DNA of 64,000 bases from Actinomycetota bacterium (lineage in GTDB: Bacteria > Actinomycetota > Acidimicrobiia > Acidimicrobiales > RAAP-2), in assembly GCA_021324045.1 (NCBI GenBank), contig JAJPJV010000001.1, positions 124,001 to 188,000 of the forward strand. The letters are read 5' to 3'. Shown here piece by piece: positions 10,104-48,064 of this stretch. The notes under the pieces are model-generated. The model saw only the letters and a program-made list of their open reading frames with translations, ran no database searches and was not told where the DNA came from. Each line of letters starts with the position of its first letter. Positions within the stretch are counted from its first letter, which is position 1. The position numbers and the translations under genes are program-made.

Positions 10104-10813
10104 TGGCACCTCGGGTCGCCGTGGTGGTGTTCCCCGGGACCAACTGTGAGCACGACGTCATCGTCTCGCTCAGCGGACTGGGTGCCCAGGCTGAGCTCGT
10201 CTGGCACCGCGAGCGTCACCTCGTCGGGTTCGATGCCGTAATCCTCCCCGGAGGCTTCGCTCACGGCGACTACCTCAGACCTGGGGCGCTTGCCCGCTTC
10301 TCACCGGTGATGGCTGCCGTCGCGGAATTCGCGGCGAGCGGCGGTCCGGTGGTCGGCATCTGCAACGGGTTCCAGGTTCTGACGGAGGCTCGGCTCCTGC
10401 CAGGAGCGCTCCAGAAGAACCGCGGGCTGCATTTCCTCTGCCAGCCGGCCGTCATCGAGGTGGTCTCGTCGCGTTCGGTGTTGACGCGTGGGATCCCGGT
10501 GGGCACGGAACTGAACGTGCCTATCAATCATTTCGACGGGAGTTACGTCTGCGACGCGCAGACACTCGCCGAACTGCGAGCCGAGGACCGCATCGTCCTG
10601 CGGTACCGGGAGAACCCCAACGGTTCGATCGACGACATCGCGGGGATCTGCAACGCCACTGGGAACGTGGTGGGCCTGATGCCGCACCCTGAGCGGGCGA
10701 GCAGCGAGTTGCTGGGCTCCACCGACGGACTCGTGCTGTTGCGCTCCCTGCTCGCCGCCGAGGAGACCGAGATCACGACGTCCGCGCCAAGCCCACCGGT
10801 ACCGACTTGGTGA
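10103..10813 (+). CDS. purQ: FGAM synthetase glutaminase subunit PurQ
   Basis: PurQ (236 aa) is the class I glutamine amidotransferase that supplies ammonia to PurL. The nucleophile is Cys87 in GICNGFQ, and the His195/Glu197 pair lies in MPHPE. PGTNCEHD at the N-terminus and the oxyanion-region LPGGFAHGDYLRPG are typical. It overlaps purS. purL, its partner, lies about 730 bases downstream beyond an antisense gene, so purQ and purL may not share one uninterrupted coding run. Confidence 0.97.
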   Translation: MAPRVAVVVFPGTNCEHDVIVSLSGLGAQAELVWHRERHLVGFDAVILPGGFAHGDYLRPGALARFSPVMAAVAEFAASGGPVVGICNGFQVLTEARLLPGALQKNRGLHFLCQPAVIEVVSSRSVLTRGIPVGTELNVPINHFDGSYVCDAQTLAELRAEDRIVLRYRENPNGSIDDIAGICNATGNVVGLMPHPERASSELLGSTDGLVLLRSLLAAEETEITTSAPSPPVPTW

Positions 10814-10864
10814 CCCACCGCCGCCACTCGCCGTCCGGCGCCGGATGTCCCTGCCGAAACTGCG

Positions 10865-11314
10865 TCAGCCGCGGGAACGGGTGATGCCTGCTTTCTGCAA
10901 AGAGGAGGCAGGGACGCCCGCGCTTCTCCACGTACTGTAGCTGATCCCCTTACGCTCGCCATAGGACTTCGCGACCTTGATGAACATCTTTTCCAGCTCC
11001 GCGAGGTCCTGAGCTTCCCCAGACTTTTGGAGCTCTTCGGTCAGGTCCTTTTGCTGCTGGAGCAGGTGCAGCCGACTCAGGGCATCTGCAGTGGGAAGCT
11101 CGGCCTCGATTGCCTTCAGGCGCTTGGCGATCGAGGCCGGAGTACGCCGCCGACCACGCCGCGGCTTGTTGGCCTCCAGGGCTTCCAGATAGCGACGAAC
11201 GGCAAGGCCTTCCTCGCGGCCTTTGGCGAGGGCGGCCTTGTGTTGCGAGCTCATTGGGCGACGCGAACCGCGGGTCTTGGCGTTGGGCATATCTTCATCT
11301 TTAGCACTATTCAT
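10865..11314 (-). CDS. Conserved basic coiled-coil protein of unknown function
   Basis: This 149-residue Lys/Arg-rich protein lies antisense between purQ and purL. A basic N-terminal third (SSQHKAALAKGREEGLAVRR, then KPRRGRRRT) is followed by a predicted helical pair (about residues 60-100) and a C-terminal module with YGERKGISYSTWR and GVPASSLQKAGITRSRG. I recall similar proteins in many actinobacteria without an assigned function. The basic helix-rich make-up would suit nucleic-acid binding, but this is inference. An alternative start at the second Met (11290) gives 141 residues. The upstream DNA is AT-rich and carries three 15-bp repeats. Confidence 0.75.
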   Translation of the reverse strand: MNSAKDEDMPNAKTRGSRRPMSSQHKAALAKGREEGLAVRRYLEALEANKPRRGRRRTPASIAKRLKAIEAELPTADALSRLHLLQQQKDLTEELQKSGEAQDLAELEKMFIKVAKSYGERKGISYSTWRSAGVPASSLQKAGITRSRG

Positions 11315-11389
11315 CTTCAGGAGGCAATCCTATACCCCAATAATATCGGGACTTCACATCGGATATCTTTGATTTATAGGGCCGACCAT

Positions 11390-11434
11390 CGTCAGAATAC
11401 GAGTCGCCAGAATACAATTCGTCAGAATACAAGT
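11390..11434. repeat. Three tandem 15-bp direct repeats in an AT-rich gap
   Basis: Three near-identical units follow one another with 15-base spacing: CGTCAGAATAC+GAGT at 11390, CGCCAGAATAC+AATT at 11405 and CGTCAGAATAC+AAGT at 11420. They lie in a stretch (about 11300-11440) much richer in A and T than its surroundings, 76-120 bases upstream of the antisense gene ending at 10865 and about 105-150 bases upstream of purL. An operator with stacked binding sites is the simplest reading, but a chance microduplication is not excluded. Confidence 0.75.
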
Positions 11435-11539
11435 TCGAATCGCTGCAACCCCACTGGTGCATTGGCTCTTCGGCGACAAGCACGTTGGGTTCGGCGGGCG
11501 ATCGGGCGAACGTGGCCGCTCGCTACCGTCTTCGTCGTG

Positions 11540-29580: not shown

Positions 29581-30345
29581 CTACGGGCGGCCGGGCACCG
29601 CGAAGCGGTAGCCGATACCTCGCACCGTCGTGATGAGCTTCGGGTCCGAGGGATCGGCCTCGATCTGGGCACGCAGCCGCTTGATGTGGACATCGAGGGT
29701 CTTGGTGTCCCCGATGTAGTCGCTGCCCCAAACGCGATCGATGAGCACGTCCCGGGTCAGGACACGGCCACGGTTCTCCACGAGGATGCGGAGCAGATCG
29801 AACTCCTTTCGGCGGAGGCGCACCTCGGCGCCGCGGACGAAGACCCGACGCTGGTCGATGTCGACGGTGACGTCGCCTGCCTCGAGGATGCCCTCTGCGT
29901 GCAGCGGACCGCGGTCGGCGTTCGTCGTCGCGTCGACGTGCGGAGCCCTGCGGAGTACCGCACGCATGCGCGCGATGAGCTCCCTGAGTCGGAAGGGCTT
30001 GGTTACGTAGTCGTCGGCCCCGAGCTCGAGCGCCAGCACCGTGTCGATCTCGGTCCCCTTGGCCGTCACCACGATGATCGGCACCGAAGACGACGAACGG
30101 ATCGACCTACAGACATCGATGCCCGAGAGCTTGGGCAGCATCAGGTCCAACAGGATGAGGTCCGGCTTGACCTCCTCGAACATGCGGAGGGCCTCGACGC
30201 CGTCACGAGCCACCGTCACCTCGAAGCCCTCGTGGCTGAGGCCGACTTCGAGAGCCTCGATGAAGGACTCCTCGTCCTCTGCGATCAGGACGCTCACCCG
30301 GTGTTCATCGGCGGATTGGGGATGGGCGATCGATCCGGAGTTCAT
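29581..30345 (-). CDS. OmpR/PhoB-family response regulator (RegX3-like)
   Basis: This 254-residue protein has an N-terminal receiver domain (VLIAEDEE acidic pair, phosphoacceptor Asp67 in LILLDLMLP, Thr in VVTAKG, Lys116 in VTKPF). The C-terminal winged helix has LRRKEFDLLRIL and KTLDVHIKRLRAQIE with RGIGYRF. Its start overlaps the end of the kinase gene by four bases, so kinase and regulator are co-expressed. The pair most resembles SenX3-RegX3, which responds to phosphate in other actinobacteria. No pho gene is present to confirm this. Confidence 0.92.
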   Translation of the reverse strand: MNSGSIAHPQSADEHRVSVLIAEDEESFIEALEVGLSHEGFEVTVARDGVEALRMFEEVKPDLILLDLMLPKLSGIDVCRSIRSSSSVPIIVVTAKGTEIDTVLALELGADDYVTKPFRLRELIARMRAVLRRAPHVDATTNADRGPLHAEGILEAGDVTVDIDQRRVFVRGAEVRLRRKEFDLLRILVENRGRVLTRDVLIDRVWGSDYIGDTKTLDVHIKRLRAQIEADPSDPKLITTVRGIGYRFAVPGRP

Positions 30346-31880
30346 TGGGGTCTGCCCTGAAGGGGGAGGACCAGGGTGAAGGTTGAACCCTCGCCTTCGC
30401 GCGACTCGACGTCGACTCGGCCGCCGTGGTTGGTGGCCACATGCCGAACGATGGAGAGACCGAGACCAGTTCCGCCCGTGTTGCGGCTGCGCCCGTGGTC
30501 GACCCGGTAGAAGCGTTCGAAGATCCGCTCGAGGTCTCGGGCGGGGATGCCGACGCCGTGGTCGGCGACCGAGATGCGAACGACTTCGTGCTCAGGCACC
30601 GGCTCCGACGGTCGGTCGATGGCAGACGACGGGGCACCAGGGGGACTCCCGAGGCCCGGAGCGGTTGCGATGGTGGTCATCGACGCGGTGGTCCCCCCGA
30701 TCGAAACCGGGGGTGAGTGGCCGGACGCCACGGCTGCCGTGCCGGCCCCGGCGCTCCACTGAGTAGGGGCAACGGTGCTGGCCTGCGGGGTGGGCTCGAG
30801 TGCTCGGGTTCCGAGCTCCCCGAGAGCCGTCGGTTCGGCGGGCTCCTTGGCGACGACGCCGCGAACCGTGACGGTGCTGTTGTCGTAGGAATAGGTGACC
30901 GCGTTCTCGAGCAGCGCGTAGACCGCCGAGACGAGCTGGCGGCGGTCCCCCATCACCGTGACGGGCGGTGAGGGCTCGTACAGCACGATCGCGATGCCTC
31001 GTTGCTCGGCGGCGGCGCGGACCCGTTCGACGGCTTCTGCCATCACGAGGTTGACGAGCACCGGCTCGCGTGGGGGAGCGGACTCCGCTTCGATGCGACT
31101 GAGGTCGAGGAGGTCGTCGATGATGCGGCTCACGCGGAAGGCCTCGCTGTGAATGCGGCTTGCCAGCCGCTTGGCGACGTCTTGGTCGGGCTCTGACAGG
31201 AGGGTCTCGGCCAGCAGGCCGAGTGCCCCCATCGGCGTCTTCAGCTCATGGCTGACGTTGGCGACGAAGTCGCGACGAACCTCTTCCAGTCGCCGACGTT
31301 CTGAGATGTCGTCGATGGTGGCGATCACCCCGAGGGAGCGATGGCCGTCGTCGATGACCATCGCGCGCACGCTGAGGGTCCTTCTTGGGGGGCCGTAGAG
31401 GTCGAGCGTCCGCTCGGCGTTTCCGTGCTCCCACGCCTCGGCGAGCAGCTCCGTCACCGCTTGGGCCGCGAGCGCGTCACCGTGGCGGCTCGCCATCAAC
31501 GCGTTCGCTGGCGTGTTCTGATAGACGACGCTGCCGTTTTCGTCGCAGACCACTACGCCTTGGGGCAGGGTGTCGAGAGAGCGTCGGAGTCGGATGGCGT
31601 CAGAGCTTGCCTCGGCGACGGCTTCCGCTGCCGCCCCGGTTACCTGCTCGAGGTAGGTCAACGCGTTTTCGAGGGTCGCGTCCTCGGCCGGTGGGTTGAG
31701 GCCAAGACGCGACCCGAGGGCGACCATTCGTTGTGTGAGCGCACTCCGCCCGGCACGACGGCCGATGACCAGTGCAAGGAGGACGGCCACGACCAGCACG
31801 CATGCACCCACCGCGTACCCGGCGGGCGCGGGCAGACCCAGGACCTTGGCTGCTCCGAGGAGCTCGGCTACGACGAGCAC
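30342..31880 (-). CDS. Sensor histidine kinase (SenX3/PhoR-like) with insert in the ATPase domain
   Basis: From GTG 31880 the protein has 512 residues: one membrane helix (GYAVGACVLVVAVLLALVIG), a PAS domain (LPQGVVVCDENGSVVYQN), the phosphoacceptor H-box FVANVSHELKTP and an ATPase domain with N-box LLENAVTYS, G1 VADHGVGIP and G2 GGTGLGLSIV. About 80 low-complexity residues rich in Ala, Pro, Thr and Ser separate the N- and G1-boxes, where classical kinases have only a short strand. The start is uncertain. An in-frame extension to 32090 would overlap the divergent gene at 31999. A GGAGG immediately precedes the GTG. Confidence 0.9.
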   Translation of the reverse strand: MLVVAELLGAAKVLGLPAPAGYAVGACVLVVAVLLALVIGRRAGRSALTQRMVALGSRLGLNPPAEDATLENALTYLEQVTGAAAEAVAEASSDAIRLRRSLDTLPQGVVVCDENGSVVYQNTPANALMASRHGDALAAQAVTELLAEAWEHGNAERTLDLYGPPRRTLSVRAMVIDDGHRSLGVIATIDDISERRRLEEVRRDFVANVSHELKTPMGALGLLAETLLSEPDQDVAKRLASRIHSEAFRVSRIIDDLLDLSRIEAESAPPREPVLVNLVMAEAVERVRAAAEQRGIAIVLYEPSPPVTVMGDRRQLVSAVYALLENAVTYSYDNSTVTVRGVVAKEPAEPTALGELGTRALEPTPQASTVAPTQWSAGAGTAAVASGHSPPVSIGGTTASMTTIATAPGLGSPPGAPSSAIDRPSEPVPEHEVVRISVADHGVGIPARDLERIFERFYRVDHGRSRNTGGTGLGLSIVRHVATNHGGRVDVESREGEGSTFTLVLPLQGRPQ

Positions 31881-31998: not shown

Positions 31999-32292
31999 AT
32001 GCTGTTGTTCGCAGGTCCGACCATCACCCTCAACCCCGACCCGAGCAAGCTCCCCGGTGGGTCGACGCTGCAGTCGTTGACCAACGGCATCGGCGGTTGG
32101 GCCCTGATCCTGTCGCTCGTCGGTCTGGTGATCGGCGCCGCAGCGTGGGCGCTCGGTGCGCACTCGCAGAACTACCACCAGTCGTTCATCGGTCGACGGG
32201 CCGTGCTGGTCTGTGGGCTCGCGGCGCTCCTCATCGGAGCAGCCCCAGAGATCATTTCGTTCTTCTACCGCACCGGAACCGGTGTCCACTGA
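31999..32292 (+). CDS. Small two-helix membrane protein, TrbC/VirB2-like
   Basis: This 97-residue protein starts at ATG 31999, with AAGGA ten bases upstream. It has a short polar start (GPTITLNPDPSKLPGG), two hydrophobic segments (GGWALILSLVGLVIGAAAWALG and AVLVCGLAALLIGAAPEIISFF) and a basic turn between them. The layout fits the TrbC/VirB2 pilin-like proteins that open many type IV secretion loci, and it is the first gene of such a set here. There is no long cleavable signal peptide. Identity rests on topology and context. Confidence 0.6.
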   Translation: MLLFAGPTITLNPDPSKLPGGSTLQSLTNGIGGWALILSLVGLVIGAAAWALGAHSQNYHQSFIGRRAVLVCGLAALLIGAAPEIISFFYRTGTGVH

Positions 32293-33787
32293 CGTGGTCT
32301 CGGCGTTGCCGATCATTCCCGTGGCGGGATGTCCCCCGCTCGGACCGGTCGACACCATCTGCCAGGCCGCCAGTGGCGTCGGGTCCTCGATCGCCGGGGC
32401 CGGGGCCGGAGCGGTGCTCGATGCGGTTGCCGGTTGGGTCGTCAACGGGGCGAGCTGGTTGCTCACCCAGATCGCAACGGTGATCTCCAGCACGACCGGC
32501 ATCGATGTTCGGGCGTCATGGTTTGAATCGCACTACCAGACGATGGCAGGCATCGCCGTGGCAGTCATCGTGCCGTTGCTGCTGGTGTCGGTGTTCCAGG
32601 CGATCTACCACCAGAGCGCGGCAATCCTGTTGCGTTCATTCTTCGTCCAGCTCCCTCTGGCCATCTTGCTGACCTTTGCCGCCATGCAGCTCGTGCAGCT
32701 GGCGCTGGCGACCACGGATGCGCTGAGTTCGACCGTGGCGCGCCACTCCGGCAACGACATCCAATCGGCGCTGTCGGGACTGGCGAACGCGATGGCGAAC
32801 CAGCTGGTTTCCGGGAACTCCGCGACGCCCACCTTCGTGACGCTGCTTGCCGCGCTCGTCGTCGGGTTGGGGGCGCTCGGTCTGTGGATCGAGCTCCTTG
32901 TGCGGGCTGCAGCCGTCTACGCAGCCGTGCTGTTCCTGCCGCTCGCCCTTGCCAGCCTCGTGTGGCCGACCATCGCCCACTGGTGCCGGCGCCTCGTCGA
33001 GTCGCTGGCGGCGCTCGTCTTGTCCAAGTTCGTCATCGTGGCGATCCTGAGCCTCGCCGTGGGGGCATTGGCTCCGAGCTCGAAGGCTCCGGTCTCGGCC
33101 GTGCTCGCCGGGGGGTCGTTGCTCCTGCTGGCGGCCTTCAGCCCCTTCACGCTCTTTCGTCTGATCCCGATGGTCGAGGTGGGGACGATGCAGCACCTCG
33201 AGGGGCTCCGGCACCGGGCGACTCGGACGGCAGCGGTCGTTCCGAAGGCAGCGGCGGCATACGCGTTGCGCCAGATCGGTGCCGAGTCCCTGGAGCTCGG
33301 CCCAGTCGGGACCGGTCGGACGTTGTCGATGGAGCCGCCCAGCGGAGCACTCAACACCGGAGAACCGGACTGGGCGGCTACCGACAGCAGTGCCGACGCG
33401 CCGGCATCCCCGCACGCGGACCCGATCCGAGGGGCGCCCGGGCACGCGGATCCCGAGGGGATCCCCCTCTGGCAGGGTAGCCCGCCTTCGGGGGTCGAAG
33501 GAGAGGCCTTCCCATGGGCCGTGCGCGCCGAGTCGGACGTTCCCGCCGGTACGGAGGGCGCGAGCGCGCTCCCGATACGCGACGATGCGGGACGCGGGAG
33601 GCCACCGCTCATCGGTGCGCCTCGGTCGCCGGCCGTCACGCCACGGAGGCGGCCGGATCCTTCTTCATTTTCGAGCGTGCCCGCGGCCGGCGGCACCGCG
33701 GTGATCGACCACGACGAACTCGGACCCGTCATCCGGTGGGTGCCCGACCCACCCGGTGATGCCCCGCCTGCGAAGCCGAGCCCCTGA
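32282..33787 (+). CDS. Polytopic membrane protein, TrbL/VirB6-like
   Basis: This 501-residue protein starts at GTG 32282, 11 bases inside the previous gene; 32294 is an alternative. The first 330 residues hold six to seven hydrophobic segments (MAGIAVAVIVPLLLVSVF, FFVQLPLAILLTFAAMQL, FVTLLAALVVGLGALGL, FVIVAILSLAVGALAP and others). The rest is a proline-rich, probably cytoplasmic tail ending in a conserved-looking VIRWVPDPPG. This matches the channel component class TrbL/VirB6 in gram-positive type IV systems. An SD-like GAGGAGG follows for the next gene. Confidence 0.65.
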   Translation: MSTDVVSALPIIPVAGCPPLGPVDTICQAASGVGSSIAGAGAGAVLDAVAGWVVNGASWLLTQIATVISSTTGIDVRASWFESHYQTMAGIAVAVIVPLLLVSVFQAIYHQSAAILLRSFFVQLPLAILLTFAAMQLVQLALATTDALSSTVARHSGNDIQSALSGLANAMANQLVSGNSATPTFVTLLAALVVGLGALGLWIELLVRAAAVYAAVLFLPLALASLVWPTIAHWCRRLVESLAALVLSKFVIVAILSLAVGALAPSSKAPVSAVLAGGSLLLLAAFSPFTLFRLIPMVEVGTMQHLEGLRHRATRTAAVVPKAAAAYALRQIGAESLELGPVGTGRTLSMEPPSGALNTGEPDWAATDSSADAPASPHADPIRGAPGHADPEGIPLWQGSPPSGVEGEAFPWAVRAESDVPAGTEGASALPIRDDAGRGRPPLIGAPRSPAVTPRRRPDPSSFSSVPAAGGTAVIDHDELGPVIRWVPDPPGDAPPAKPSP

Positions 33788-33799
33788 GGAGGTCTTTCG

Positions 33800-35377
33800 G
33801 TGGCACCTGATTCACAGCGTTACCGCTTCGGTCCCCTCGAGCGGCGAGGACTAATCGCTGGGTGGAGGAGCGGACAGATTGCATCGGTGGGCGCGAGCCT
33901 GGTCATTGCGGTCACCGTCCTCCACGGTGCCGCCGATGTCACCGGCGGCGTGCTGGCATTCATCGCGGTCGCTGGCGGAATCGGCGTTGCCTGCTGGCCG
34001 ATCGCGGGCCGTTCGCTGGAGGAATGGCTGCCGGTCGTGATGCGCTGGACGGCCGATGGGCTCTTGGGCCGCCGCCGTCTCTTTGGTGCTCCTGAGCTCG
34101 GACACTGCATGGGGCCAGACGGCGTGACACGTTGCACCGCGGTCTCGGTGGCTCGCTCTCGCACGCGAAGCACCCGTTGGAGCCGGGAAGCCTCGGAACG
34201 AGCGATCGCGACTGAGTGCCGTGCATTCCAGGGTCTTTCGATCCTCGGTGTTCGCGCGACCGGTGTGCCAGGGGTTGCGGGAGAGGGCCACGAGCTCGAG
34301 GAGCCAACGGTTTGTGTGATCCATGACGCGAGGGCAAGCACCTATACCGGAGCGCTAGCAGTGCGTGGTCACAGCTTTGCGTTGCTCGGTCGGGAAGATA
34401 AGGAGCGACGTGTTGCGAGTTGGTCTTCGGCCCTGGCTGTGCTGGCTCGCGATGGCGCTGTCGTCAACAGGCTCCAGTGGCTGGCGTTCACCCTGCCCGA
34501 CGACGGGTACGCCGTGCACCGCCATCTCCAGGATCGTGCCACCGCCGCAAGCGACGCGCCCGCTCGACGCTCCTACGAAGAGCTCGTCATGTTCACCGGG
34601 GCGAACACCTGCCGACACGAGGTCTTGATCGTTGTCCAGATCCGTGATCGCCGCCGCCTCGGCGTGCCTTCTCGAAGCCGCCACCTCCGCCCTGGCCCGG
34701 ATTCCATGACGTGCGCGGCACTGGTCAGAGAGATGCAAACGCTTGGACGGCTCCTCTCCGACGCAGACGTGATCGTGGATGGTCTGCTTGGCCCCAGGGC
34801 GCTGGCCGCAGTGATCCGTCGAACCGGGGAGACGATGACTCGGCGGTGCCCACCATGTGTCGTGGGCGCGCCGTGGCCTGTCGCGATGGAGACCGAGTGG
34901 TCGCGGGTGCGTACCGACCAGACGTGGCAGGCAACGTATTGGATTGCCGAATGGCCTCGTGTCGATGTGGGTCCGGACTTTCTCGCGCCACTGCTGCTTG
35001 GCCCAGTCAGGCGCTCGGTCAGCGTGGTGATGGAGCCGATGGGTCCAAGGCGTGCCACCAAACAGGTGGAGCGAGCGAGGACGGCGGACATCGCCGATTC
35101 GGAGCTCCGGAGGAGAGGAGGATTCCTGACGACGGCACGGCGTGCTCGCGAGGCGGAGATGGTCGTCCAAAAAGAGAGCGAGCTCGCCGACGGGCACGCT
35201 TCGTTTCGCTTCAGCGGCTATGTGACGGTGACGGCACCGTCGGTGGAAGCACTCGAAGAGGCCTGCGAGGTGACCGAGCATGCCGCCGGTCAGTCGCGTT
35301 TGGAGCTTCGCCGCCTCTACGGCGACCAGGAGCGAGCCTTTACCTGCACGCTGCCGCTCTGCCGTGGTCTTTCGTGA
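33800..35377 (+). CDS. SCO6880-family type IV secretion protein
   Basis: This 525-residue protein starts at GTG behind GAGGAGG (about 33787). A basic N-terminus (RYRFGPLERRGLIAGWRSGQ) precedes two close membrane helices (SVGASLVIAVTVLHGAA and VLAFIAVAGGIGVACWPIAG), as in PrgI/SCO6880 proteins. A long soluble region without an ATPase motif follows and resembles the N-terminal part of VirB4-type ATPases (ADVIVDGLLGP, TYWIAEWPRVDVGPDFLAPL). In actinobacterial conjugative loci such proteins sit next to a separate VirB4-like ATPase, as here. The stop overlaps that gene as GTGA. Confidence 0.72.
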   Translation: MAPDSQRYRFGPLERRGLIAGWRSGQIASVGASLVIAVTVLHGAADVTGGVLAFIAVAGGIGVACWPIAGRSLEEWLPVVMRWTADGLLGRRRLFGAPELGHCMGPDGVTRCTAVSVARSRTRSTRWSREASERAIATECRAFQGLSILGVRATGVPGVAGEGHELEEPTVCVIHDARASTYTGALAVRGHSFALLGREDKERRVASWSSALAVLARDGAVVNRLQWLAFTLPDDGYAVHRHLQDRATAASDAPARRSYEELVMFTGANTCRHEVLIVVQIRDRRRLGVPSRSRHLRPGPDSMTCAALVREMQTLGRLLSDADVIVDGLLGPRALAAVIRRTGETMTRRCPPCVVGAPWPVAMETEWSRVRTDQTWQATYWIAEWPRVDVGPDFLAPLLLGPVRRSVSVVMEPMGPRRATKQVERARTADIADSELRRRGGFLTTARRAREAEMVVQKESELADGHASFRFSGYVTVTAPSVEALEEACEVTEHAAGQSRLELRRLYGDQERAFTCTLPLCRGLS

Positions 35378-36720
35378 GCGAGCGCCAGGCTCGCAGCGGC
35401 TTCCGGCTCCCCGCGCACACCGTGACCACCCGACATCTCGGAGCGGCCTATCCCTTCGTGGCAGAGGCTGGCCTTGGGCACCGCGGCGTGCTCATCGGGC
35501 GTGACCTCATGGGCGGTGCGTACGTGTACGACCCCTTCGAGCTCTATGCCCAGGGGATGGTCAGCAACCCGAACATGATTGTGTTCGGCCAGATCGGACG
35601 GGGGAAGAGTGCCTTCGTCAAGACCTACCTGTGGCGCCAGTCCGTGTTCGGTCGCCGTGCGTGGGTGGTCGACCCCAAAGGGGAGTACGAGGTGCTCGCC
35701 CGCTCCTGGGGCGTGATGCCCGTCGCCCTCCGTCCGGGTGGCTCTGTGCGATTGAACCCCCTCGATCGGGGCGAAGCCCACCTCGAGCACCTTGGAACTG
35801 CATCCGGCTCCCTTGGAGCCAGTGCGCCCAGCGCAGGCGAGCCCGCGGACGACTCCCAGCGGCGCCAGATCGAGCTGCTCGCATCCCTTGCCGCTGCTTG
35901 CCTGGGGAGGAACCTTGCGCCCCGCGAGCGGGTCGCGATCGACCTCGCGATGAGCACGGTGGCTGCATTCGACGCCGTCCCGACGCTCCCCAGGGTCGTC
36001 GATGCCCTCCTCGACCCCAGGGACGACATGGCTCGCAGCGTGAGAACCGATCGGGCCAGGCTGCTCGAAGACGGAAGAGACGTCGCGCTCGAGCTCCGCC
36101 GGCTCGTTCACGGTGACTTGCGCGGCATGTTCGACGGCCCCACGACCCCGGGCCTCGACCTCTCCGGAGCGCTGGTGGTCCTGGACCTGTCGGCGCTCTA
36201 CAACTCGGCAGCGCTTGGCGTCCTGATGGCGTGCGCGACCGCGTGGCTCCAGTCAGCGCTGGCTCGTGACGCGCCGCGGCGTTCACGCGACGGGAGCCAG
36301 GTCTTCGTGGTGGTCGACGAAGCATGGGCGATCCTGGCCAACCTCGGGGTCGCACGCTGGCTGCAGGCGTCCTGGAAGCTCTCGCGCGCGTTCGGGGTAG
36401 CCAACATCGCGGTTCTTCACCGCCTCTCGGATCTCCGTGCGGTCGGTGCGCTGGACTCCGAGCAGGTGGGGCTGGCCCAGGGATTGCTGTCGGATTCGGA
36501 GACCCGTGTCGTCTACGCACAGTCACCGGGAGAGGTGGAGCGGGCGAGCGAGTTGTTGTCGCTCTCCCCCACCGAAGCGGAACTGCTCCCGCAGCTTCGC
36601 CGTGGCATCGCGCTGTGGAAGGTCGGTCAACGATCGTTCCTGGTGCAACACGTCGTCGGACCTGGAGAACGCGAGCTCGTCGACACTGACACGGCGATGG
36701 GGATCCATGCCTTCGATTGA
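35374..36720 (+). CDS. VirB4/TraC-like secretion ATPase
   Basis: This 448-residue ATPase begins at GTG 35374, overlapping the SCO6880-like gene. Walker A is FGQIGRGKSAFVKT (Gly72-Ser79) and Walker B FVVVDEAWAIL, with VVDPKGEYEVLARSWG between them, typical of VirB4/HerA-type ATPases that recognise the relaxase-free DNA or protein substrate. The large N-terminal domain of classical VirB4 is missing; its role appears to be taken by the preceding protein. It is presumably membrane-associated through partners. Confidence 0.8.
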   Translation: MSERQARSGFRLPAHTVTTRHLGAAYPFVAEAGLGHRGVLIGRDLMGGAYVYDPFELYAQGMVSNPNMIVFGQIGRGKSAFVKTYLWRQSVFGRRAWVVDPKGEYEVLARSWGVMPVALRPGGSVRLNPLDRGEAHLEHLGTASGSLGASAPSAGEPADDSQRRQIELLASLAAACLGRNLAPRERVAIDLAMSTVAAFDAVPTLPRVVDALLDPRDDMARSVRTDRARLLEDGRDVALELRRLVHGDLRGMFDGPTTPGLDLSGALVVLDLSALYNSAALGVLMACATAWLQSALARDAPRRSRDGSQVFVVVDEAWAILANLGVARWLQASWKLSRAFGVANIAVLHRLSDLRAVGALDSEQVGLAQGLLSDSETRVVYAQSPGEVERASELLSLSPTEAELLPQLRRGIALWKVGQRSFLVQHVVGPGERELVDTDTAMGIHAFD

Positions 36721-38443
36721 GATGAGCGCGCTCGACCTCACCGGTGGATGGCTGGCGGCGGCCGCGGTGCTTTCGAGCGCCGGTGCCACGGTGGGCGCGG
36801 GTTGGCGGGGTCGGAGGGCGCACCAGGGCGGCCGCTCAGGGCAAGAGCGCCTCTTCGGCCGGCTGCGAGCATCGCCAGGTAGAGGGGCGCGCTGGGCACG
36901 GCGGTCGGACTTGGGGCCGCTACGGATCCGAGGGAGTGCGGAACCGCCGCCAGGCCGCCTGGTCCTCGGCTGGGTCGCGGGCTCGGCGGGCCGTCCGAGG
37001 CGGCAGTTGCTGGCAGCCGAGGCGTCCCAATCCGTTGCCGTCGTCGGTCCCACCCAGAGCGGGAAGACGAGCAGCTTCGCGGTTCCGGCGATCCTGGGAT
37101 GGAGGGGCCCGGTCCTGGCGGTCAGCGTGAAGACCGACCTGGTTCGCGACACCTATCGATGGCGGAGGAGTTGCGGCATTGTCTGGTGCTTCGACCCGAC
37201 AGAGGCGACGGGACTGGCCAGCAGCCCCTGGTCTCCGCTGCGAGCCGCTCGGACGTGGACGGGAGCTCGTCGGGTCGCTGCCGACCTCACCGAGGTCACG
37301 CGAACGAACTCGAGCACGCCCGACGGCGACTTTTGGTATGCGACCGCCGCCAAGCTCATTGCGCCGCTGCTGTTCGCGGCGGCCGCCAGCGGCCGAACCA
37401 TGGTTGACGTCGTTCGCTGGGTCGACACCCAGGAGGTCGCCGAGGTCGTCGCGGCACTCGAAGCCTCCGGCGTCCGCGAAGCCATGCAAGCGGCTTATGC
37501 ATCCTTCGGGCGCGACGAGCGCCAGCGCAGTGCCGTGTACACGACCGCCGAGACGGTTCTCGAACCTTTCGCCGGCATGGCATCCGGTTCGTTACCGACC
37601 CGGACCCAGATGATGGGGTCGGCGTGGAGTGTGCCGGATTCCCTGCATCCCACAGGGCTGCTGGGGGCTGAGCCCTTGCGAGACGCCAACAAGGCTTTCT
37701 TCGGCGGTTCCCCAGAGGCGTGGCGATCAGGTGAGATCCGTCCCGATCTGCTGCTCGATGGATCAAACACGCTCTATGTCTGCGCACCGGCGCACGACCA
37801 GCGGCGTCTCCGAGGACTGTTCACTGCCATCGTCAAGCAAGTCCTCGAGGTTGCATTCTCGCGGTCGACTCTTTTGGGAGGGCCACTGCGCCCCCCACTG
37901 CTCGTGGTCCTCGATGAAGCGGCCAACATCGCTCCGCTCGCAGAGCTCGATGGGCTCGCAGCGACGTGTGCGAGCCACGGGGTGCAGCTGGTCACCATCT
38001 GGCAGGACCTCGCACAGCTTTCAGCCCGCTACGGTGACCGTGCAGCCACAGTGATCAACAACCATCGAGCACGGATCTTTCTTTCGGGAATCGCAGACGG
38101 CGGAACGCTCGAGCAAGCGAGCCGCCTCCTCGGGGACGAAGAAGTCGAGGTGCCCAGCGTCACCCGTGATGCAGCTGGTGGTCGTTCGATGACGATCTCG
38201 TCGCACCGGCGGCGACTGCTCTCTCCCGAGGCGCTGCGCCAGCTCCCCCCTGGCACCGGCGTCCTGGTGTACGGATCGCTCCCGCCAGTGAAAGTGGCCC
38301 TCAGGCCCTGGTGGCGCGATGCGCAGCTCCAACGAAGAGGTAGCTACAGTGCCCTGAGTGACTGGCACGACCTCGGACCTGGCGGCATTCGGGGCCGCTT
38401 CGGGCATCGCAGGCCAGACCGCAAGCCCGAACGGCATATATGA
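36707..38443 (+). CDS. TraG/VirD4-type coupling ATPase
   Basis: From ATG 36707 (or 36722) the protein has about 578 residues. One N-terminal hydrophobic segment (LTGGWLAAAAVLSSAGATVG) anchors it. The ATPase has Walker A VVGPTQSGKTSSF (Gly114-Thr121) and Walker B PPLLVVLDEAANIAP, then LDGLAATCASHGVQLVTIWQ, characteristic of VirD4/TraG coupling proteins that feed substrates to the channel. It overlaps the ATPase gene upstream by 14 bases, and its last 86 bases overlap bluB in another frame. No relaxase is encoded nearby, so the cargo is unknown. Confidence 0.83.
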   Translation: MPSIEMSALDLTGGWLAAAAVLSSAGATVGAGWRGRRAHQGGRSGQERLFGRLRASPGRGARWARRSDLGPLRIRGSAEPPPGRLVLGWVAGSAGRPRRQLLAAEASQSVAVVGPTQSGKTSSFAVPAILGWRGPVLAVSVKTDLVRDTYRWRRSCGIVWCFDPTEATGLASSPWSPLRAARTWTGARRVAADLTEVTRTNSSTPDGDFWYATAAKLIAPLLFAAAASGRTMVDVVRWVDTQEVAEVVAALEASGVREAMQAAYASFGRDERQRSAVYTTAETVLEPFAGMASGSLPTRTQMMGSAWSVPDSLHPTGLLGAEPLRDANKAFFGGSPEAWRSGEIRPDLLLDGSNTLYVCAPAHDQRRLRGLFTAIVKQVLEVAFSRSTLLGGPLRPPLLVVLDEAANIAPLAELDGLAATCASHGVQLVTIWQDLAQLSARYGDRAATVINNHRARIFLSGIADGGTLEQASRLLGDEEVEVPSVTRDAAGGRSMTISSHRRRLLSPEALRQLPPGTGVLVYGSLPPVKVALRPWWRDAQLQRRGSYSALSDWHDLGPGGIRGRFGHRRPDRKPERHI

Positions 38444-39101
38444 GGTCATCCATCGTCGCCGCGACGTCCGGGGGCAGTTCACTGGCGAGCCGATCCCCCC
38501 GGAGGTCCTCGAGCGGATCCTGCTCGCCGCGCATGCCGCTCCGAGCGTGGGTCTTACCCAGCCGTGGGATTTCGTAGTCGTCGACGACATCGGGATCCGC
38601 AGGGCCTTCTTCGATCACGTCTACGCAGAACGCGCGATTTTCGCGAATTCGTTGCCACCAGGGTTCGCCGAGCGGTTCTCGGCGATCAAGATCGAAGGGA
38701 TTCTCGACGCCACCATCGGCGTCGTCGTGACCTACGACCCGCAGCGCGGCGCTCCGCATGTGCTCGGTCGTCATGCCATCGACGACGCCGGTTTGTACTC
38801 AGTGTGCCTCGCGATTGAGAACCTTTGGCTCGCGGCGACCGCTGAGGGCCTCGGTGTGGGATGGGTCTCCTTCTACCGGGAGGAGGTCCTGCGCGACCTC
38901 CTGGGCATTCCTTCTGAGGTCCGCCCGGTCGCATGGCTTTGCTTGGGGCCGGTGACGCACTTCGAACCCGTTCCCGATCTCGAACGTCACGGTTGGCGGA
39001 AACGGCTGAGCCTCGCGGAGGTCCTTCACCACAATCATTGGATTAGTGACGACTCGAGTGTCACGGAAAGGGTCGAGGAACGTCATGGCACCGGATCCTG
39101 A
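38358..39101 (+). CDS. bluB: 5,6-dimethylbenzimidazole synthase (BluB)
   Basis: This 247-residue nitroreductase-fold flavoprotein makes the lower ligand of vitamin B12 from FMNH2 and oxygen. BluB-type signatures are HRRRDVRGQF near residue 33, AAHAAPSVGLTQPWDFVVV and the C-terminal LCLGPVTHFEPVPDLE with GWRKR. The GTG at 38358 is the only start codon ahead of the domain, so the overlap with the coupling-protein gene is genuine. The TGA lies beyond the likely start of ppgK. No other cobalamin gene is in the window. Confidence 0.85.
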   Translation: MTGTTSDLAAFGAASGIAGQTASPNGIYEVIHRRRDVRGQFTGEPIPPEVLERILLAAHAAPSVGLTQPWDFVVVDDIGIRRAFFDHVYAERAIFANSLPPGFAERFSAIKIEGILDATIGVVVTYDPQRGAPHVLGRHAIDDAGLYSVCLAIENLWLAATAEGLGVGWVSFYREEVLRDLLGIPSEVRPVAWLCLGPVTHFEPVPDLERHGWRKRLSLAEVLHHNHWISDDSSVTERVEERHGTGS

Positions 39102-39924
39102 AATACTGGTGGGCAGCGGCGAGAGACGGTCTCCGACCTTGACTGAGACACCGCGTCGTCCACTGACGTTGTCGATCGACATCGGTGGAACTGGGTTGAA
39201 GGCGTCGGTGCTCGACGCTACCGGTGCAATGGTCGCAGATCGCGTCCGGATGCCGACGCCCTACCCCCTTCCGCCCACTGGGGACCGAGGTCTTGTGTCG
39301 ATTCTCGTGAACCTCGTCGCGCCGCTGCCGGAAGCCGACCGTGTGTCTGTCGGGTTTCCCGGCATGGTTCGCAAGGGTTGCGTGCTCAGCGCGCCGCACT
39401 TCGTCACCGAGTCTGGTGCCGGTTCCAAGGTCGACGAGCAGCTCGTGAAGGCCTGGGCGAACTTCGACCTCGCAGGAGCATTGTCGGCCGCCTTGGGAAA
39501 GCCGACCAAAGTTGCCAACGACGCTGACGTGCAGGGTGCGGCAGTAGTGGCCGGGAAGGGCCTCGAGCTGGTGGTCACTCTCGGAACCGGATTCGGAACC
39601 GCCCTTTTCCTCGACGGTAGGTTGCTCCCGCACCTAGAGATCGCTCATCAACCGTTCCGCAAGGGTCAGACGTACAACGAGCAGGTTGGTGATCGGGCCC
39701 GGAAGGCGATCGGTGAGGAGCGGTGGCGAAAGCGCGTTCGGCGCGCCCTCGAGACCCTTGACGCAATGTTGTTCTTCGATCACGTCTACATCGGCGGAGG
39801 CAATTCCCGACGGATCTCCCTCGACGACCTCGGCCCATTGGCCTCCCGGGCCACGATCGTGGAGAACACCGCCGGCATCCTGGGCGGGATCAAGCTCTGG
39901 GAGGGAGAGCACCTTGCGCTGTGA
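39085..39924 (+). CDS. ppgK: Polyphosphate glucokinase (ROK family)
   Basis: This 279-residue enzyme should phosphorylate glucose using polyphosphate or ATP. The phosphate-binding motif LSIDIGGTGLKASVLD is near residue 30, and GTGFGTALFLDG and HVYIGGGNSRRI follow, as in actinobacterial PpgK. The ATG at 39085 has GAGGAA seven bases upstream and is preferred over an in-frame GTG at 39046. It overlaps the end of bluB by 17 bases. Confidence 0.92.
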   Translation: MAPDPEILVGSGERRSPTLTETPRRPLTLSIDIGGTGLKASVLDATGAMVADRVRMPTPYPLPPTGDRGLVSILVNLVAPLPEADRVSVGFPGMVRKGCVLSAPHFVTESGAGSKVDEQLVKAWANFDLAGALSAALGKPTKVANDADVQGAAVVAGKGLELVVTLGTGFGTALFLDGRLLPHLEIAHQPFRKGQTYNEQVGDRARKAIGEERWRKRVRRALETLDAMLFFDHVYIGGGNSRRISLDDLGPLASRATIVENTAGILGGIKLWEGEHLAL

Positions 39925-40027: not shown

Positions 40028-40101
40028 GCGCTCGTAGCTCAACGGATTAGAGCATCTGACTACGGATCAGAAGGTTGGGGGTTCGAATCCCTCCGAGCGC
40101 G
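40028..40101 (+). tRNA. tRNA-Arg (ACG)
   Basis: A 74-base cloverleaf has acceptor GCGCTCG/CGAGCGC, anticodon stem TCTGA/TCAGA around CTACGGA (anticodon ACG, read as ICG in vivo) and T-arm GGGGGTTCGAATCCCTC. The discriminator is G, and CCA is not encoded. Its last bases are part of the 15-bp duplication that flanks the adjacent insertion sequence, but the tRNA itself is intact. Confidence 0.96.
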
Positions 40102-40104
40102 CTG
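40090..40104. repeat. Target-site duplication, left copy
   Basis: CCTCCGAGCGCGCTG covers the 3' end of tRNA-Arg and is repeated exactly at 41268-41282. The two copies directly abut the IS481-family element. Confidence 0.8.
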
Positions 40105-41267
40105 TGTTGTGTCGCGAGACATCCCGGACGGGTGTCGCGAGACATCCCGGACAAGGTTATCCACTCCGACCCGGTCTTTTCTGGGTCTGGTAGGTCTTGT
40201 TGGGATCGAGGGTGAACTCGGCGAGGTGTTCGCCGTCTTCGGTGATGACGCACACGTCGCGGTCAGCGACGAGCAGGAGTACTCGGGTGCCGGTGTGACG
40301 GCGTCCCACGCCGAGGTGCAGGAGGTTGGAGCGGTAGCGCAGGGTGACCTTGCCCGCCTTGTCGATGCGGCTCACGCCGCACCCGGTAGCGGGTGGGGAT
40401 CGTGAGCCCGGCCCGGCGCGGGACGGCCTTGGTGCGAGCGGCGAAGGCTTGAGCCGGCGTGCGCCGACCGAGGGCTCGGTGGGGCCGGACCTCGTTGAAC
40501 TAGGCCCGGAACCGGTTGAGTTGGCATTGGAGTTCGGCGACGCTTCGCGCCCGGTGCTGTTTGGCGAGCCACTTCTTCAAGGTCTGGTGGAAACGTTCGA
40601 CCTTCCCACAGGTCTGGGGGTGATAGGGCCGGGAGTGCTTGTAGGCGACGCCGAGGGCGATCAACTCGAGCTCGATGGCGCAGCCTTGCGGCTCTCGGCG
40701 GTGAACACAGCGCCGTTGTCGGTCAACATCGAGGCCGGTAGACCCCGCTCGGCAGCGCCGAGGTGGAAGGTCTCGACCACATCTGCGGCCTTGGTCGTCG
40801 GGAAGGCCCGGCAGGCGACGAGCAACCGGGAGTGGTCGTCGATGACGTTGAGGATCTCGACATCGGTGCCATCGATGAGGGCGAAGTGGGTGGTGTCGGC
40901 CTGCCAGCACTCGTTCGGGAGCTCAGCCTGGAACCGCCGCCAGGAGCTCTTCGGCCGCTTCTGGGGCTGGGGGACGACGAAGCCCCTACAGGTGAGGACG
41001 CGCTAGATCGTGGCCACCGACGGCGGCGATGACCGAGGCCGCTTCGACCGAGCTTTGAGCCCCTCGTCGCCCAGTTCGCGATAGCGCCCGATCAGCTCGT
41101 ACAGCCAGCTGCGCGAGATGTCGTGGGCAGCACAGACGTCGTCGACACTCTGGCCTTCGACGAGCACGGCCTTGATGACGTAGTGGGCGAGATCCATCCG
41201 CATGACTCCTTATGGTCATGTCCGGGATGTCTCGCGACAGGTGTCCGGTATGTCATGAAACCAGATA
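40105..41267. mobile_element. IS481-family insertion sequence, decayed
   Basis: This 1163-base element is bounded by imperfect 25-base inverted ends (about 16 of 25 matching, both ending in CCGGAC). Inside them lies the 20-mer TGTCGCGAGACATCCCGGAC, present twice on the left (40110-40129, 40133-40152) and once inverted on the right (41220-41239). It is flanked by a 15-bp direct repeat. A single transposase reading frame on the minus strand is broken, so the element is immobile unless helped in trans. Confidence 0.82.
40157..41203 (-). pseudogene. IS481-family transposase, disrupted
   Basis: The N-terminal helix-turn-helix part starts at 41203 (DLAHYVIKAVLVEGQSVDDV, then SRSWLYELIGRY) and meets an in-frame TAG after SPPSVATI near 41004. 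The catalytic core continues in the same frame (ECWQADTTHFALIDGTD with the first Asp, SMLTDNGAVF with the second) and then shifts frame near 40700. The Glu segment HPQTCGKVERFHQTL follows, then a second TAG after LNRFRA. The C-terminus ends at 40157 (DKAGKVTLRYRSNLLHLGVG region). At least one frameshift and two stops disable it. Confidence 0.85.
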
Positions 41268-41282
41268 CCTCCGAGCGCGCTG
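41268..41282. repeat. Target-site duplication, right copy
   Basis: CCTCCGAGCGCGCTG is identical to 40090-40104. It marks the other side of the IS481-family insertion. The following 200 bases up to the IS21 element hold nothing recognisable. Confidence 0.8.
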
Positions 41283-41623
41283 GAGAGATGCAGCTCAACG
41301 ACCTGTTCTTTCCTAGCTGTCGCATTCTCCAGTTAGCCTTATTTTCTAGCCTAGGTCACCGACCACCGGGCCGACGCTTGAGGTCGAGGGCCGGGGTCGG
41401 CATGCTCACTGCGCCCGATGATGCCTCGAGGCCCTTACGCCCCTTCCCGGCGCCTCCCGCGTGTTCGTGGCCGTGAAAAAGTCCCCGCGTGTGGCCAAGT
41501 TCAGGATCCCACCGGTGGCCAGATAGAGGTCCTTGCCCCTCGCTGAGGCATCCATCCGGGGGAGCTCCCGGCCGGAGACGGTGGAGGTGTACACCGACCA
41601 CCACTCCAACCGGAGGGCACCCT

Positions 41624-42795
41624 ATGAAATCAGCGAGGGAGAAGATGAACATGATCACCGCCTACAGAGACGTGGGCAGATACCGCGGAGCGGCCGCTAT
41701 CGTCGGGACGACCCCCAAGACCATCAGGCGAGCAGTGCAGGGGCCCCGTCGCTCGGCCAGGTGGAGTGCAAGCGCCGGGAGAAGAACGTCGACGCGGTGC
41801 GCGACGTCATGGCCAAGCGCATCGACAAGACCCACGACCGGATCTCGGCCAAGCGCCTGCTCCCAGAGGCCATGGCGGCTGGCTACGTCGGCTCAGCGCG
41901 CAACTTCCGGCGCCTCATGGCCGAGGAGAAGCAAGTGTAGCGACGCCAGCACCATCGCGCCCGGCGCCCAGGCGTGTGGTCGCCGGGCGAGACGCTCATC
42001 ATCGACTGGGACCAGGAGGGACCGCTCCATGTGTTCTGCGCCGTGTTGGCCTATAACCGCGTTCGCACTGCCCCTGAGTCCAAGGGCATGCTCGAGCACC
42101 TCGTCGGCTACGCGAAGGCCGACCTCGTCGTCCCGGCCGAGGAGTCCGTCAGCGACCTCGTCGGTGCCAACGCCGGGCGGTGTTCTGGTGCGCCGAGGTG
42201 AACGCTCAAGTGCACTTAGATACCTGTGCGGTCCCCGAGGAGTGGCTCGTCGCCGAGCGCCGGGTCTTCGGCACCCCCCGTCGTTGCACCCTTCGATCGG
42301 AAAGCGGGTGACCCGCAAGGTCGACAAGCTCAGCTGCATCCGCTTCGGCTCGGCTCGCTATTCGGTGCCGATGACGCTCATCGGGCGCCTCGTCGAGATG
42401 GAGGTGGCAGGCGTAAGGCTCCGCGCCCACCTCGGCACCACGAGGGCCGAACACGCCCTGGTCGCACCGGGCGAGACTTCAGTCAAGGACGAGCACTACG
42501 GGGCCCGCGACCACATCCTCGCCGCGCCCCACGACCGCGCTCGGCTGTCGAGCGGGACGTTCTCGGGCTCGGCTCCGCCGCCGACGTGTTCATCATCGGG
42601 ACGGTCGCCGCCGGCGCGTCCACCCTCGGATCCAAGCTTCCCGAGCTCTTGCGCCTCGACCGAGGGGCCGCCTTCGGGAAAGACGACGTTATCTCTGCCC
42701 TTGAGCGGGCGGTCGCCTTCGGGCGCTGGCGCGTCGGCGACGTGCGCTGCATCTTGGGGGCTGGAGCGGGCGTCGCCACCCCGGCTGCGCCATAA
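41624..42795 (+). pseudogene. istA: IS21 transposase IstA, disrupted
   Basis: It opens with an ATG behind GGAGG, reading KSAREKMNMITAYRDVGRYR (helix-turn-helix region). It then moves between frames: RISAKRLLPEAMAAGYVGSA, ETLIIDWDQEGPLHVFCAVL (first catalytic Asp), ARYSVPMTLIGRLVEMEVAG and VRCILGAGAGVATPA at the end. At least four frame changes and missing segments, including much of the second half of the catalytic core, show a dead gene. Confidence 0.82.
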
Positions 42796-42856
42796 GACAC
42801 CCTCATTGCCTCCTTGCCTACCGCGGCCGCCCAGCCACTGTGAGCCGACGCGCCCG

Positions 42857-43674
42857 ATGAGCACCGACGCTGCCGGCGGATCTCAGGCGGGGCTCAAGCG
42901 CCTCAAGCTCACCGCGATGCGCACGCTCGCCCCAGAGCTCTTGGTGGTGGCCAAGACGCAGCGCTGGAAGCCCGAGGAGTTCTTGCGCGCCTTGGTCGAA
43001 GCAGAGATCGCAGCGCGCGACGCCTCCAATGCTCGAAACAGGCTCCGCGTGGCCAAGTTCCCGGTCACGAAGTCCCTCGACGAGTTCGACGTCGCACCCT
43101 CCTCGGCGCAAAGGGCCGGCTTCGATTACCTGGCGTTGTTGGAGTGGATCGCGGCCAGGGAGAACCCATGCCTTTGGTCCCGCAGGGACGGGAAAGTCGC
43201 ACCTGCTTGTCGCGCTCGGCCACGCAGCCGTCCAGGCCGGCCACCGCGTGCGCTACTTCTCTGCCGCCTCGCTGGTCGAGACCCTCTATCGGAGATGGCC
43301 CACAACTCGGTGGGCAAGGTGATCGATCAGACCCTGCGGGCCGACTTCGTCATCGTCGACGAGCTCGGCTTCGCCCCGCTCGACGACGCCGGCACCCAGC
43401 TGTTGTTCCGCTTCGTCGCCACTGTCTACAACGGGTGTCACTCGGTGTGGCCAGCCCCTGGCCCTTCGACCAGTGGGGACGCTTCCTTCCCGGACCAACC
43501 ACCGCGGTCAGCCTTCTCGACCGCCTGCTGCGCCACAGCGTCGTCGTCCTCACCAACGGCGAGTCGTTCCGCATGCGTCGAAGCGAGACAGAGGGGAGGT
43601 CCGCGAAAGTCCTATCGCAGTGCGAGGGGTGGGGTCTTACTTGGCCAAAGCCGGGACATCAACTTGGCCATTGA
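42857..43674 (+). pseudogene. istB: IS21 helper ATPase IstB, disrupted
   Basis: ATG 42857 starts a frame with GLKRLKLTAMRTLAPELL and SAQRAGFDYLALLEWIAARE, the IstB N-terminal region. The frame is lost exactly at the Walker A motif, which resumes elsewhere as GTGKSHLLVALGHAAVQAG. Walker B ADFVIVDELGFAPLDD and VVVLTNGESFRMR lie in yet other frames. Homology ends near the inverted repeat at 43661. Confidence 0.83.
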
Positions 43675-43993
43675 CACTGCGACCGGGCGCCGACCTAACC
43701 CCGCCGCGGTCATGGCAGCGCCACAGCCACCACGCGGCCAGCAGGTCGAGCCCCAGGGACCGGCGCACGACCCGCCCGAGATGATCCCGACGGCTACTAC
43801 GAGTACCACCCCGAGCATCACGACTCCCAAGGCCAGGGCGCCTAACGCGGCTACCTCCGGACCGGGCACGAGGGCGACCGCCGCTACGAGGACAGCCAGA
43901 CAGACGGCCCGCCGCTGCCACCGGGTTGGACCGGACGGCCGAGATCGGCGGAGACCCTCACCGGGTCAATCTTCGTCCAATCATCGCTTCGCC

Positions 43994-44668
43994 TTATCCC
44001 GCTCCCCACCCTCCGGGGGTCTGAGACGATTGGACCTGCCCTGCGCCTCCGGTCGGCGTCACAGTGACATCCTGAAAGATCGGAACTCCGCTGCTGCTGC
44101 TTGGATTTGAAACCTCGATCGATGCCGGATAGCTGTCGACGTTGCCGGCGGCACAATCGGGCTGGCAAGTGTTGACATTGAGCGTGCCTGTTCCATAGGC
44201 CGCCGCGGTTCCCCACGATTGCCAGGTGATGGAAGTCACTGACACGCTGCCATCACCGCAAGAGAGATAGACGGTGGTCGGTCGGATGACTGGGGACGTC
44301 GGACCAGCCGCACATGGGGGAATCCCCGGCAGGGCAGGCGAAGGTGCCGATATGGTCGTCGACGGGGGGGAGGTCGTTGAGGGGAGGGTGGTTGTCGGCC
44401 GAGCGACCGACGTCGAGGTACTCGGCACACTCGCCTGGTGGCGTCGTACCGAGGAACTATGGGCAGCGGCGGCCTGGTTCGGATGGTCACTTCTTCCGGC
44501 GACGAATGCGCCGATGCCAGTTCCAGCTATCGCAAGAATTGCGAGGACAGTGAGGATGACGCGGCGAAGTACCCGGCGCGTGAGAACGAATACCGGTTCG
44601 GAGCCTGGGCCTCCTTCACCGGGTCCTTGGGGAGGAGAGCCAGATCGAAAGCCCACGGGATCCGTCAT
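43994..44668 (-). CDS. Membrane-anchored secreted protein of unknown function
   Basis: From ATG 44668 (TDPVGFRSGSPPQG) the protein has 224 residues: a cytoplasmic start, one membrane helix (VILTVLAILAIAGTGIGAFVAG) and a Ser/Thr/Pro-rich stalk (about residues 85-120). An outside domain follows with four cysteines: PPCAAGPTSP, VYLSCGDGSVSVTSITWQSW and NTCQPDCAAGNVDSYPA. This domain looks like a recurring actinobacterial secreted module with a conserved Trp-x-x-Trp and paired cysteines. No function is known to me. It has no insertion-sequence relatives and is the only intact gene seen in the accessory stretch. Confidence 0.65.
   Translation of the reverse strand: MTDPVGFRSGSPPQGPGEGGPGSEPVFVLTRRVLRRVILTVLAILAIAGTGIGAFVAGRSDHPNQAAAAHSSSVRRHQASVPSTSTSVARPTTTLPSTTSPPSTTISAPSPALPGIPPCAAGPTSPVIRPTTVYLSCGDGSVSVTSITWQSWGTAAAYGTGTLNVNTCQPDCAAGNVDSYPASIEVSNPSSSSGVPIFQDVTVTPTGGAGQVQSSQTPGGWGAG

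Positions 44669-45862: not shown

Positions 45863-48064
<2,202 letters not shown>

Follow-up and report, generated by a model that had tools for sequence, protein, structure and literature searches.

Five genes at positions 31999 to 38443 of the DNA analysed here encode a compact block that resembles a type IV secretion system (T4SS). The window, as we call the whole analysed stretch of 64,000 nucleotides, comes from a genome of the Acidimicrobiales family RAAP-2 (GenBank assembly GCA_021324045.1, contig JAJPJV010000001.1, positions 124,001 to 188,000). We consider it probable that this block (locus 1) and a second one on another contig (locus 2), which encodes a relaxase, together form a reduced conjugation machine that is resident, passes down vertically and transports single-stranded DNA of the cell itself. 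We hold more tentatively, and as falling a little short of an even chance, the wider idea that these loci form the built-in mating system of an order, in which a domesticated T4SS and its relaxase, both encoded by core genes, transfer the cell's own chromosomal DNA under DNA-damage control. An earlier reading of the window, hereafter the original prediction, had described a type IV-like secretion locus without a relaxase, possibly a resident machine rather than a mobile element.

Inspection of the open reading frames (ORFs) and their sequences identified five co-directional genes with coupled junctions, encoding a VirB2-like pilin, a VirB6-like channel protein, an SCO6880 family protein, a VirB4 motor and a VirD4 coupling ATPase, all on the forward strand and arranged head to tail as originally described. 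Dozens of genomes have this set of parts in an unchanged order, which is far more than chance would give. The VirB2/TrbC-like pilin (31999..32292) has 97 aa and two hydrophobic helices, with hydrophobic stretches that start at residues 27 and 63. In Pfam it matched PF19607 (DUF6112) at 26.8 bits against a cut-off of 25 and PF04956 (TrbC/VirB2) at a sub-threshold E of 0.0011, and a syntenic orthologue was present in 28 copies of locus 1. The following gene (32282 or 32294..33787) encodes a putative VirB6/TrbL-like polytopic channel protein. This assignment draws on a family match to NCBIfam NF047967 (SCO6881 family; E 2e-21, under the model's cut-off) and on a weak fold match, in which the AlphaFold model (mean predicted local distance difference test, pLDDT, 73) was best matched by TrwI/VirB6 of R388 (7o3v_J, E 7e-3, probability 0.99; 8rtd_L, probability 1.00).

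The SCO6880 gene (33800..35377) and the VirB4 motor gene (35374..36720; 448 aa; NF045971, CD1110 VirB4) share a GTGA between the stop of the former and the start of the latter, and the ATG of VirD4 lies one base 3' of the VirB4 stop. VirD4 (36722..38443), a VirD4/TraG coupling ATPase that we call TraG1, matched PF02534 (E 5e-36), PF12696 (E 2e-24) and NF045973 (CD1115 VirD4-like; E 8e-31). The prediction of two distinct P-loop ATPases held up, with complete motifs in VirB4 (GQIGRGKS and DEAW) and in VirD4 (GPTQSGKT and DEAA); in an alignment covering 20 genera or families, the VirB4 P-loop (G72..GKS79) and D315-E316-A317-W318 were invariant. The VirB4 and VirD4 features that mark membership of the MPF_FATA-type T4SSs were present, with VirB4 as a split gene pair. 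We set aside a defence system as an identity for the block, as its PADLOC mad8 matches fell only on the P-loop ATPases and are not specific.

The split of VirB4 alters how the third gene should be read. SCO6880 had been listed as a component of its own; its family assignment stands (NCBIfam NF042935, E 7e-72, 243 bits against a cut-off of 60), but its separateness does not. The VirB4 model NF045971 was shared out between two genes, with SCO6880 matching positions 192-362 and the next gene positions 413-729, and no P-loop was seen in SCO6880. Its AlphaFold model (53 sequences, mean pLDDT 82.4, predicted template modelling score 0.83) places a two-helix membrane hairpin (residues 24-43 and 47-65) ahead of the VirB4 N-terminal domain. 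All 14 Foldseek matches with E <= 0.001 were R388 TrwK/VirB4 or inner-membrane-complex entries, and the best solved match in a structural aligner was TrwK residues 1-384 (Z 25.6, root-mean-square deviation 5.1, 352 residues). Because SCO6880 is modelled with the VirB4 N-terminal fold and the next gene supplies the motor, VirB4 is divided between SCO6880, which holds its N-terminal part and the hairpin anchor, and the gene for the motor. The hairpin may correspond to VirB3/PrgI, on the strength of its two-helix form rather than of a profile match. A common actinobacterial family that had no assigned role can thus be recognized as the N-terminal half of VirB4.

Locus 1 is resident, probably by vertical inheritance, and not an integrative and conjugative element (ICE), because it keeps the same chromosomal neighbors across the family and in other families, no integrase occurs in the flanks read around it, and it evolves much as housekeeping genes do. 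A synteny survey compared window proteins with relatives, whose gene calls came from a basic caller of our own making. It found the succession of serS, a response regulator, a kinase, VirB2, VirB6, SCO6880, VirB4 and VirD4 across the family loci. The same order was found in the small genomes of the family's largest genus (L253-L257) and in many other Acidimicrobiales families, the number of families with resident loci being taken from inspected examples. In the window, the conserved left neighbors are an OmpR/PhoB-type response regulator (29581..30345, reverse strand; PF00072, PF00486) and a divergent PAS/histidine kinase (30342..31880, reverse strand; PF00512, PF02518), and the block proved to be fixed beside this pair in the family and in many related families. 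On the right, a nitroreductase-family gene (38358..39101, forward; PF00881), often conserved, is followed by a conserved gene for a ROK-family, ppgK-like kinase (39046..39924, forward; PF00480), and the cultured Aciditerrimonas ferrireducens MV1 (L186) likewise has nitroreductase and ppgK behind the block. Of the core neighbors named in the original prediction, "bluB" can be kept only at the level of the nitroreductase family.

Pairwise distances of VirB4 and of MobF, the relaxase of locus 2, correlate at 0.71, and those of serS and gpsA at 0.67. More generally, the distances of VirB4, MobF and TraG2, a second VirD4 at locus 2, agree with those of the housekeeping genes serS, gpsA and manB to about the degree that the latter agree among themselves. 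Given these distances, it is very improbable that the block is a recently integrated or decaying ICE. Mobile copies of the same secretion type do exist in the order (L053 and L061), and downstream in the window there is a tRNA-Arg followed by broken transposase-like ORFs of insertion sequence type (40028-44110; IS481- and IS21-like by sequence reading). However, the tRNA and these fragments lie beyond ppgK, outside the conserved block, and the mobile copies of VirB4 mostly branch apart from the resident ones, which is a tendency only, in a quick tree with long branches and open forks. Neighbors shared across genera and families, flanks with no integrase and invariant active sites also speak against an ICE. 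The suggestion that the block is resident rather than mobile is therefore borne out, and instead of sharing an integrative element with a relaxase and an integrase, the block has its relaxase on a different contig, outside any element.

This relaxase overturns the description of the system as lacking one, which is accurate for the flanks of locus 1 but not for the genome. Locus 2 lies at about 44-49 kb of contig C30 (G000:C30), where a MobF/TrwC relaxase of 469 aa (45875-47275) is the only TrwC match in the genome (PF08751, E 4.5e-67; NCBIfam MobF, E 1.2e-57). We saw no helicase domain, as there was no other Pfam match in the 469 aa; throughout the family MobF has about 330-500 aa and no helicase match, and longer MobF proteins occur in other families. 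A relaxase of the MOBP type (PF03432) was absent from this genome and matched in 2 of 61 relatives. MobF begins directly behind a PafBC-like gene (HTH_PafC, WYL and WCX), which is the genome's only match over the PafC cut-off, and it is convergent with TraG2 beside it. In most genomes TraG2 lacks a membrane helix, and its P-loop lies about 30-60 residues from the likely start. The order pafBC, MobF, TraG2 recurs across the family, flanked by cofC/gpsA at one end and by ctaG or further fixed genes at the other, and the pafBC-MobF link extends to further families. For both loci, core-gene status holds even in genomes under 2 Mb.

We aligned 35 resident MobF proteins, which are about 28-48% identical to this genome's copy. 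Tyr14 was present in all 34 rows covering it, and H152, R156, P160, H161, H163 and H165 in 35/35, so that the predicted catalytic tyrosine and metal-binding histidines are conserved wherever covered. As a separate observation, a gene for a Lys/Ala-rich, histone-H1-like repeat protein lies beside TraG2 in many family genomes (L043, 12209-13183, and relatives).

The two loci are inherited together. Among 150 surveyed genomes of the family, 138 had the VirB4 motor and 146 had MobF, and the 98 near-complete genomes gave 90/98 and 97/98, respectively. Across 298 genomes of the order, MobF occurred in 116 of the 121 that carried the motor, 38 had MobF alone and 139 had neither (Fisher p 7e-42 for co-occurrence, uncorrected for kinship and with mobile MobF copies included). 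Both loci are also present in A. ferrireducens MV1. In a sister family (f16), represented by Acidiferrimicrobium sp. IK (L184), MobF lies only 87 bp from a VirB2-VirB6-SCO6880-VirB4-VirD4 operon and is divergent from it, and therefore ties the relaxase and secretion halves together; a second locus of that family (L052) has a similar arrangement without VirD4. The flanks in L184 hold housekeeping genes, a lysyl-PG-synthase-like gene and MurT/GatD-like genes, the latter named by sequence reading. Where this secretion type occurs in mobile form in the order, its contigs also encode long MobF proteins.

Because of this link to a relaxase, we favor DNA rather than protein as the substrate. In favor of the alternative that locus 1 is an effector-delivery machine and locus 2 an unrelated resident relaxase, locus 1 has a VirD4 of its own, and chromosomal T4SSs of Patescibacteria, which come with few relaxases, are thought to serve other tasks (PMC12102498). 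Yet the genes next to locus 1 include no conserved effector-like one, those that follow it being ordinary metabolic genes that vary, and the co-occurrence of motor and MobF, like the adjacency in f16, is at odds with unrelated loci. We regard protein secretion as improbable.

From the co-inheritance, fixed positions and conserved residues of these parts, we infer a joint function for the two loci, in which locus 1 would supply the membrane part (VirB2-like pilin, VirB6-like channel, split VirB4 and VirD4) and locus 2 the MobF relaxase without a helicase domain and the second, membrane-free VirD4. MobF would nick chromosomal DNA at a site and bind the strand, and the VirD4 proteins could then deliver this single strand, with its bound relaxase, to the VirB2-VirB6-VirB3/B4 channel, which would have a VirB2-like pilus or tip. 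The channel would pass the strand to a neighboring cell for recombination or repair. The same parts would also fit a machine that releases single-stranded DNA into the medium, from which others take it up naturally. The gonococcal genetic island offers a precedent, as it encodes a chromosomal T4SS with a relaxase that secretes DNA. Nothing in our analysis separates release from transfer, and we give release into the medium a low probability, similar to that of protein secretion. The system may also be tied to DNA damage, as its trigger or consequence; we raise this tie because the relaxase lies directly behind the genome's only PafBC-type regulator and, in mycobacteria, single-stranded DNA activates PafBC (PMC11804915).

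Several observations weigh against a conjugation machine that moves the cell's own DNA. Neither locus 1 nor locus 2, the two places inspected for it, has a visible cell wall hydrolase; in the mobile copies L053 and L061, such enzymes are present as NlpC/P60 or CHAP proteins. Streptomyces (L245 and L246) and other classes have a one-helix protein between VirB2 and VirB6 that is VirB8-like by sequence reading, with no profile match; a profile of this protein found none in our genome and gave weak partial matches in the family and strong matches in five other genomes of the order. The original prediction had noted that VirB8-11 equivalents and a lytic enzyme were missing from the flanks, and for the VirB8-like protein this now extends to the genome by profile, and for the hydrolase to both loci. 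Their absence could mean that the channel has been cut down to another task. In addition, a shared-word scan of the intergenic region upstream of TraG2 found no origin of transfer (oriT), the words that rose above shuffles falling in the Lys/Ala-rich repeat gene or in a TTGACC-like promoter, and a PafBC-type promoter pattern had no match upstream of VirB2 or pafBC, a result of little weight. Genome-wide absences rest on profile searches, most surveyed genomes are metagenome-assembled, such that absence from a single genome may be assembly loss, and the co-occurrence count is subject to kinship and mobile MobF copies as stated.

The main rival to cell-to-cell DNA transfer is an intracellular role, in which a former conjugation machine would form a septum or membrane complex that segregates or repairs the chromosome and in which MobF would nick DNA at a specific site. 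Deletion of cmdABCDEF in Streptomyces, a locus with the same core order, causes chromosome segregation and sporulation defects, and no role in transfer has been reported for it (PMC2782261), which also counts against conjugation. The relaxase adjoins a DNA-damage-type regulator gene, and the Acidimicrobiales version does without the VirB8-like protein and the hydrolase. However, the Streptomyces phenotype comes from a distant relative for which no MobF link has been described, the VirB2-like pilin and VirB6-like channel that are retained here have no obvious use inside a cell, and transfer between cells requires just such a relaxase as is found here, with its active site intact. We therefore judge an intracellular role unlikely, although it deserves clearly more weight than any of the other alternatives.

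Comparison with known systems helps to place the Acidimicrobiales loci. The archaeal Ced (Sulfolobales) and Ted (Thermoproteales) systems are likewise chromosomal, domesticated VirB2/VirB6/VirB4 sets for cellular DNA (PMC9905601, PMC11868833), and Ced serves repair by DNA exchange (PMC9905601). They have no recognizable relaxase, whereas the Acidimicrobiales system has MobF, two VirD4 proteins and a split VirB4; and ced expression is induced by DNA damage, while here there is only the gene linkage between relaxase and PafBC-type regulator. Streptomyces coelicolor cmdABCDEF (SCO4126-4131) and SCO6878-6881 (PMC2782261) are alike in being chromosomal, in encoding VirB4-, SCO6880- and SCO6881-like proteins with a matching order of the core genes, and in a VirD4-like gene. 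In contrast to our block, cmd has a gene for the VirB8-like protein, placed after the pilin-like gene and before the VirB6-like one, and no described MobF partner, and its proteins are distant (VirB4 36-37% and SCO6880 27% identical).

The ICEs and plasmids of monoderms with MPF_FATA systems share the CD1110-like VirB4, CD1115-like VirD4, VirB6-like protein and a relaxase in the genome, and perhaps a VirB3-like protein if the hairpin is one. The Acidimicrobiales system differs from these in lying off any element, with VirB4 split, the relaxase at another locus, no VirB8-like protein and no hydrolase in the loci. R388 TrwC has a MobF domain with the catalytic Tyr and His triad in common but is a relaxase-helicase, and SCO6880 fits the N-terminal part of the R388 VirB4, TrwK. 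The chromosomal T4SSs of Patescibacteria are also widely kept and of the monoderm conjugation type, although most, unlike ours, have no relaxase (PMC12102498). Mycobacterial distributive conjugal transfer and Streptomyces TraB transfer move actinobacterial chromosomal DNA as well (PMC12857230), but they rely on ESX genes and the FtsK-like TraB, respectively, and neither is a T4SS with a MobF relaxase.

Bacterial conjugation has been regarded as a property of mobile elements, in explicit contrast to archaeal Ced (PMC9905601). Our results suggest that certain bacteria have kept conjugation as a function that serves themselves, because relaxase and T4SS core genes stand at two fixed sites in many families with intact active sites, on the chromosome instead of a plasmid. 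They further suggest that an order of bacteria, whose carriers live in soil and freshwater, may exchange its own chromosomal DNA by built-in conjugation; by analogy, a bacterial counterpart of Ced that has kept its relaxase would describe such a mating system. We found no description of this system in Acidimicrobiia in the open-access literature, where SCO6880 and DUF6112 are almost unmentioned. The question is open to test in the cultured carrier A. ferrireducens MV1, which has both loci.

Several smaller observations accompany these results. The SCO6880 model also resembled 6umm_A (Z 17.2, 270 of 285 residues, both membrane helices included), 6sgz_D (Z 12.7) and 7b9f_E (Z 11.9), which we take to be EccE chains of ESX-3/ESX-5 type VII secretion systems; this likeness may connect type IV with type VII secretion at the level of structure. 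Loci from other actinobacterial classes (L236-L244, L247 and L248) have the same core with the VirB8-like gene between VirB2 and VirB6, and in several of the other-class copies VirB4 scores well above the mobile copies. Several genera have a disrupted operon, with VirB4 and VirD4 apart from the first three genes or on other contigs: in L024, L025, L026, L037 and L039, VirB2-VirB6-SCO6880 is in place and VirB4 and VirD4 lie elsewhere or off the stretch. Two of the small genomes in the largest genus (L253, 5408-9647, and L256, 5116-9527) have ppgK directly 3' of VirB4; TraG1 seems to have been lost there while TraG2 was kept at locus 2. The genes that follow TraG1 vary, apart from a recurrent 410-aa gene that is cytochrome P450-like by sequence reading. 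Finally, L052 encodes, between SCO6880 and VirB4, a protein of 722 aa (10516-12684) that combines F5/8 type C with Ig-like domains and is possibly a surface adhesin of the machine.

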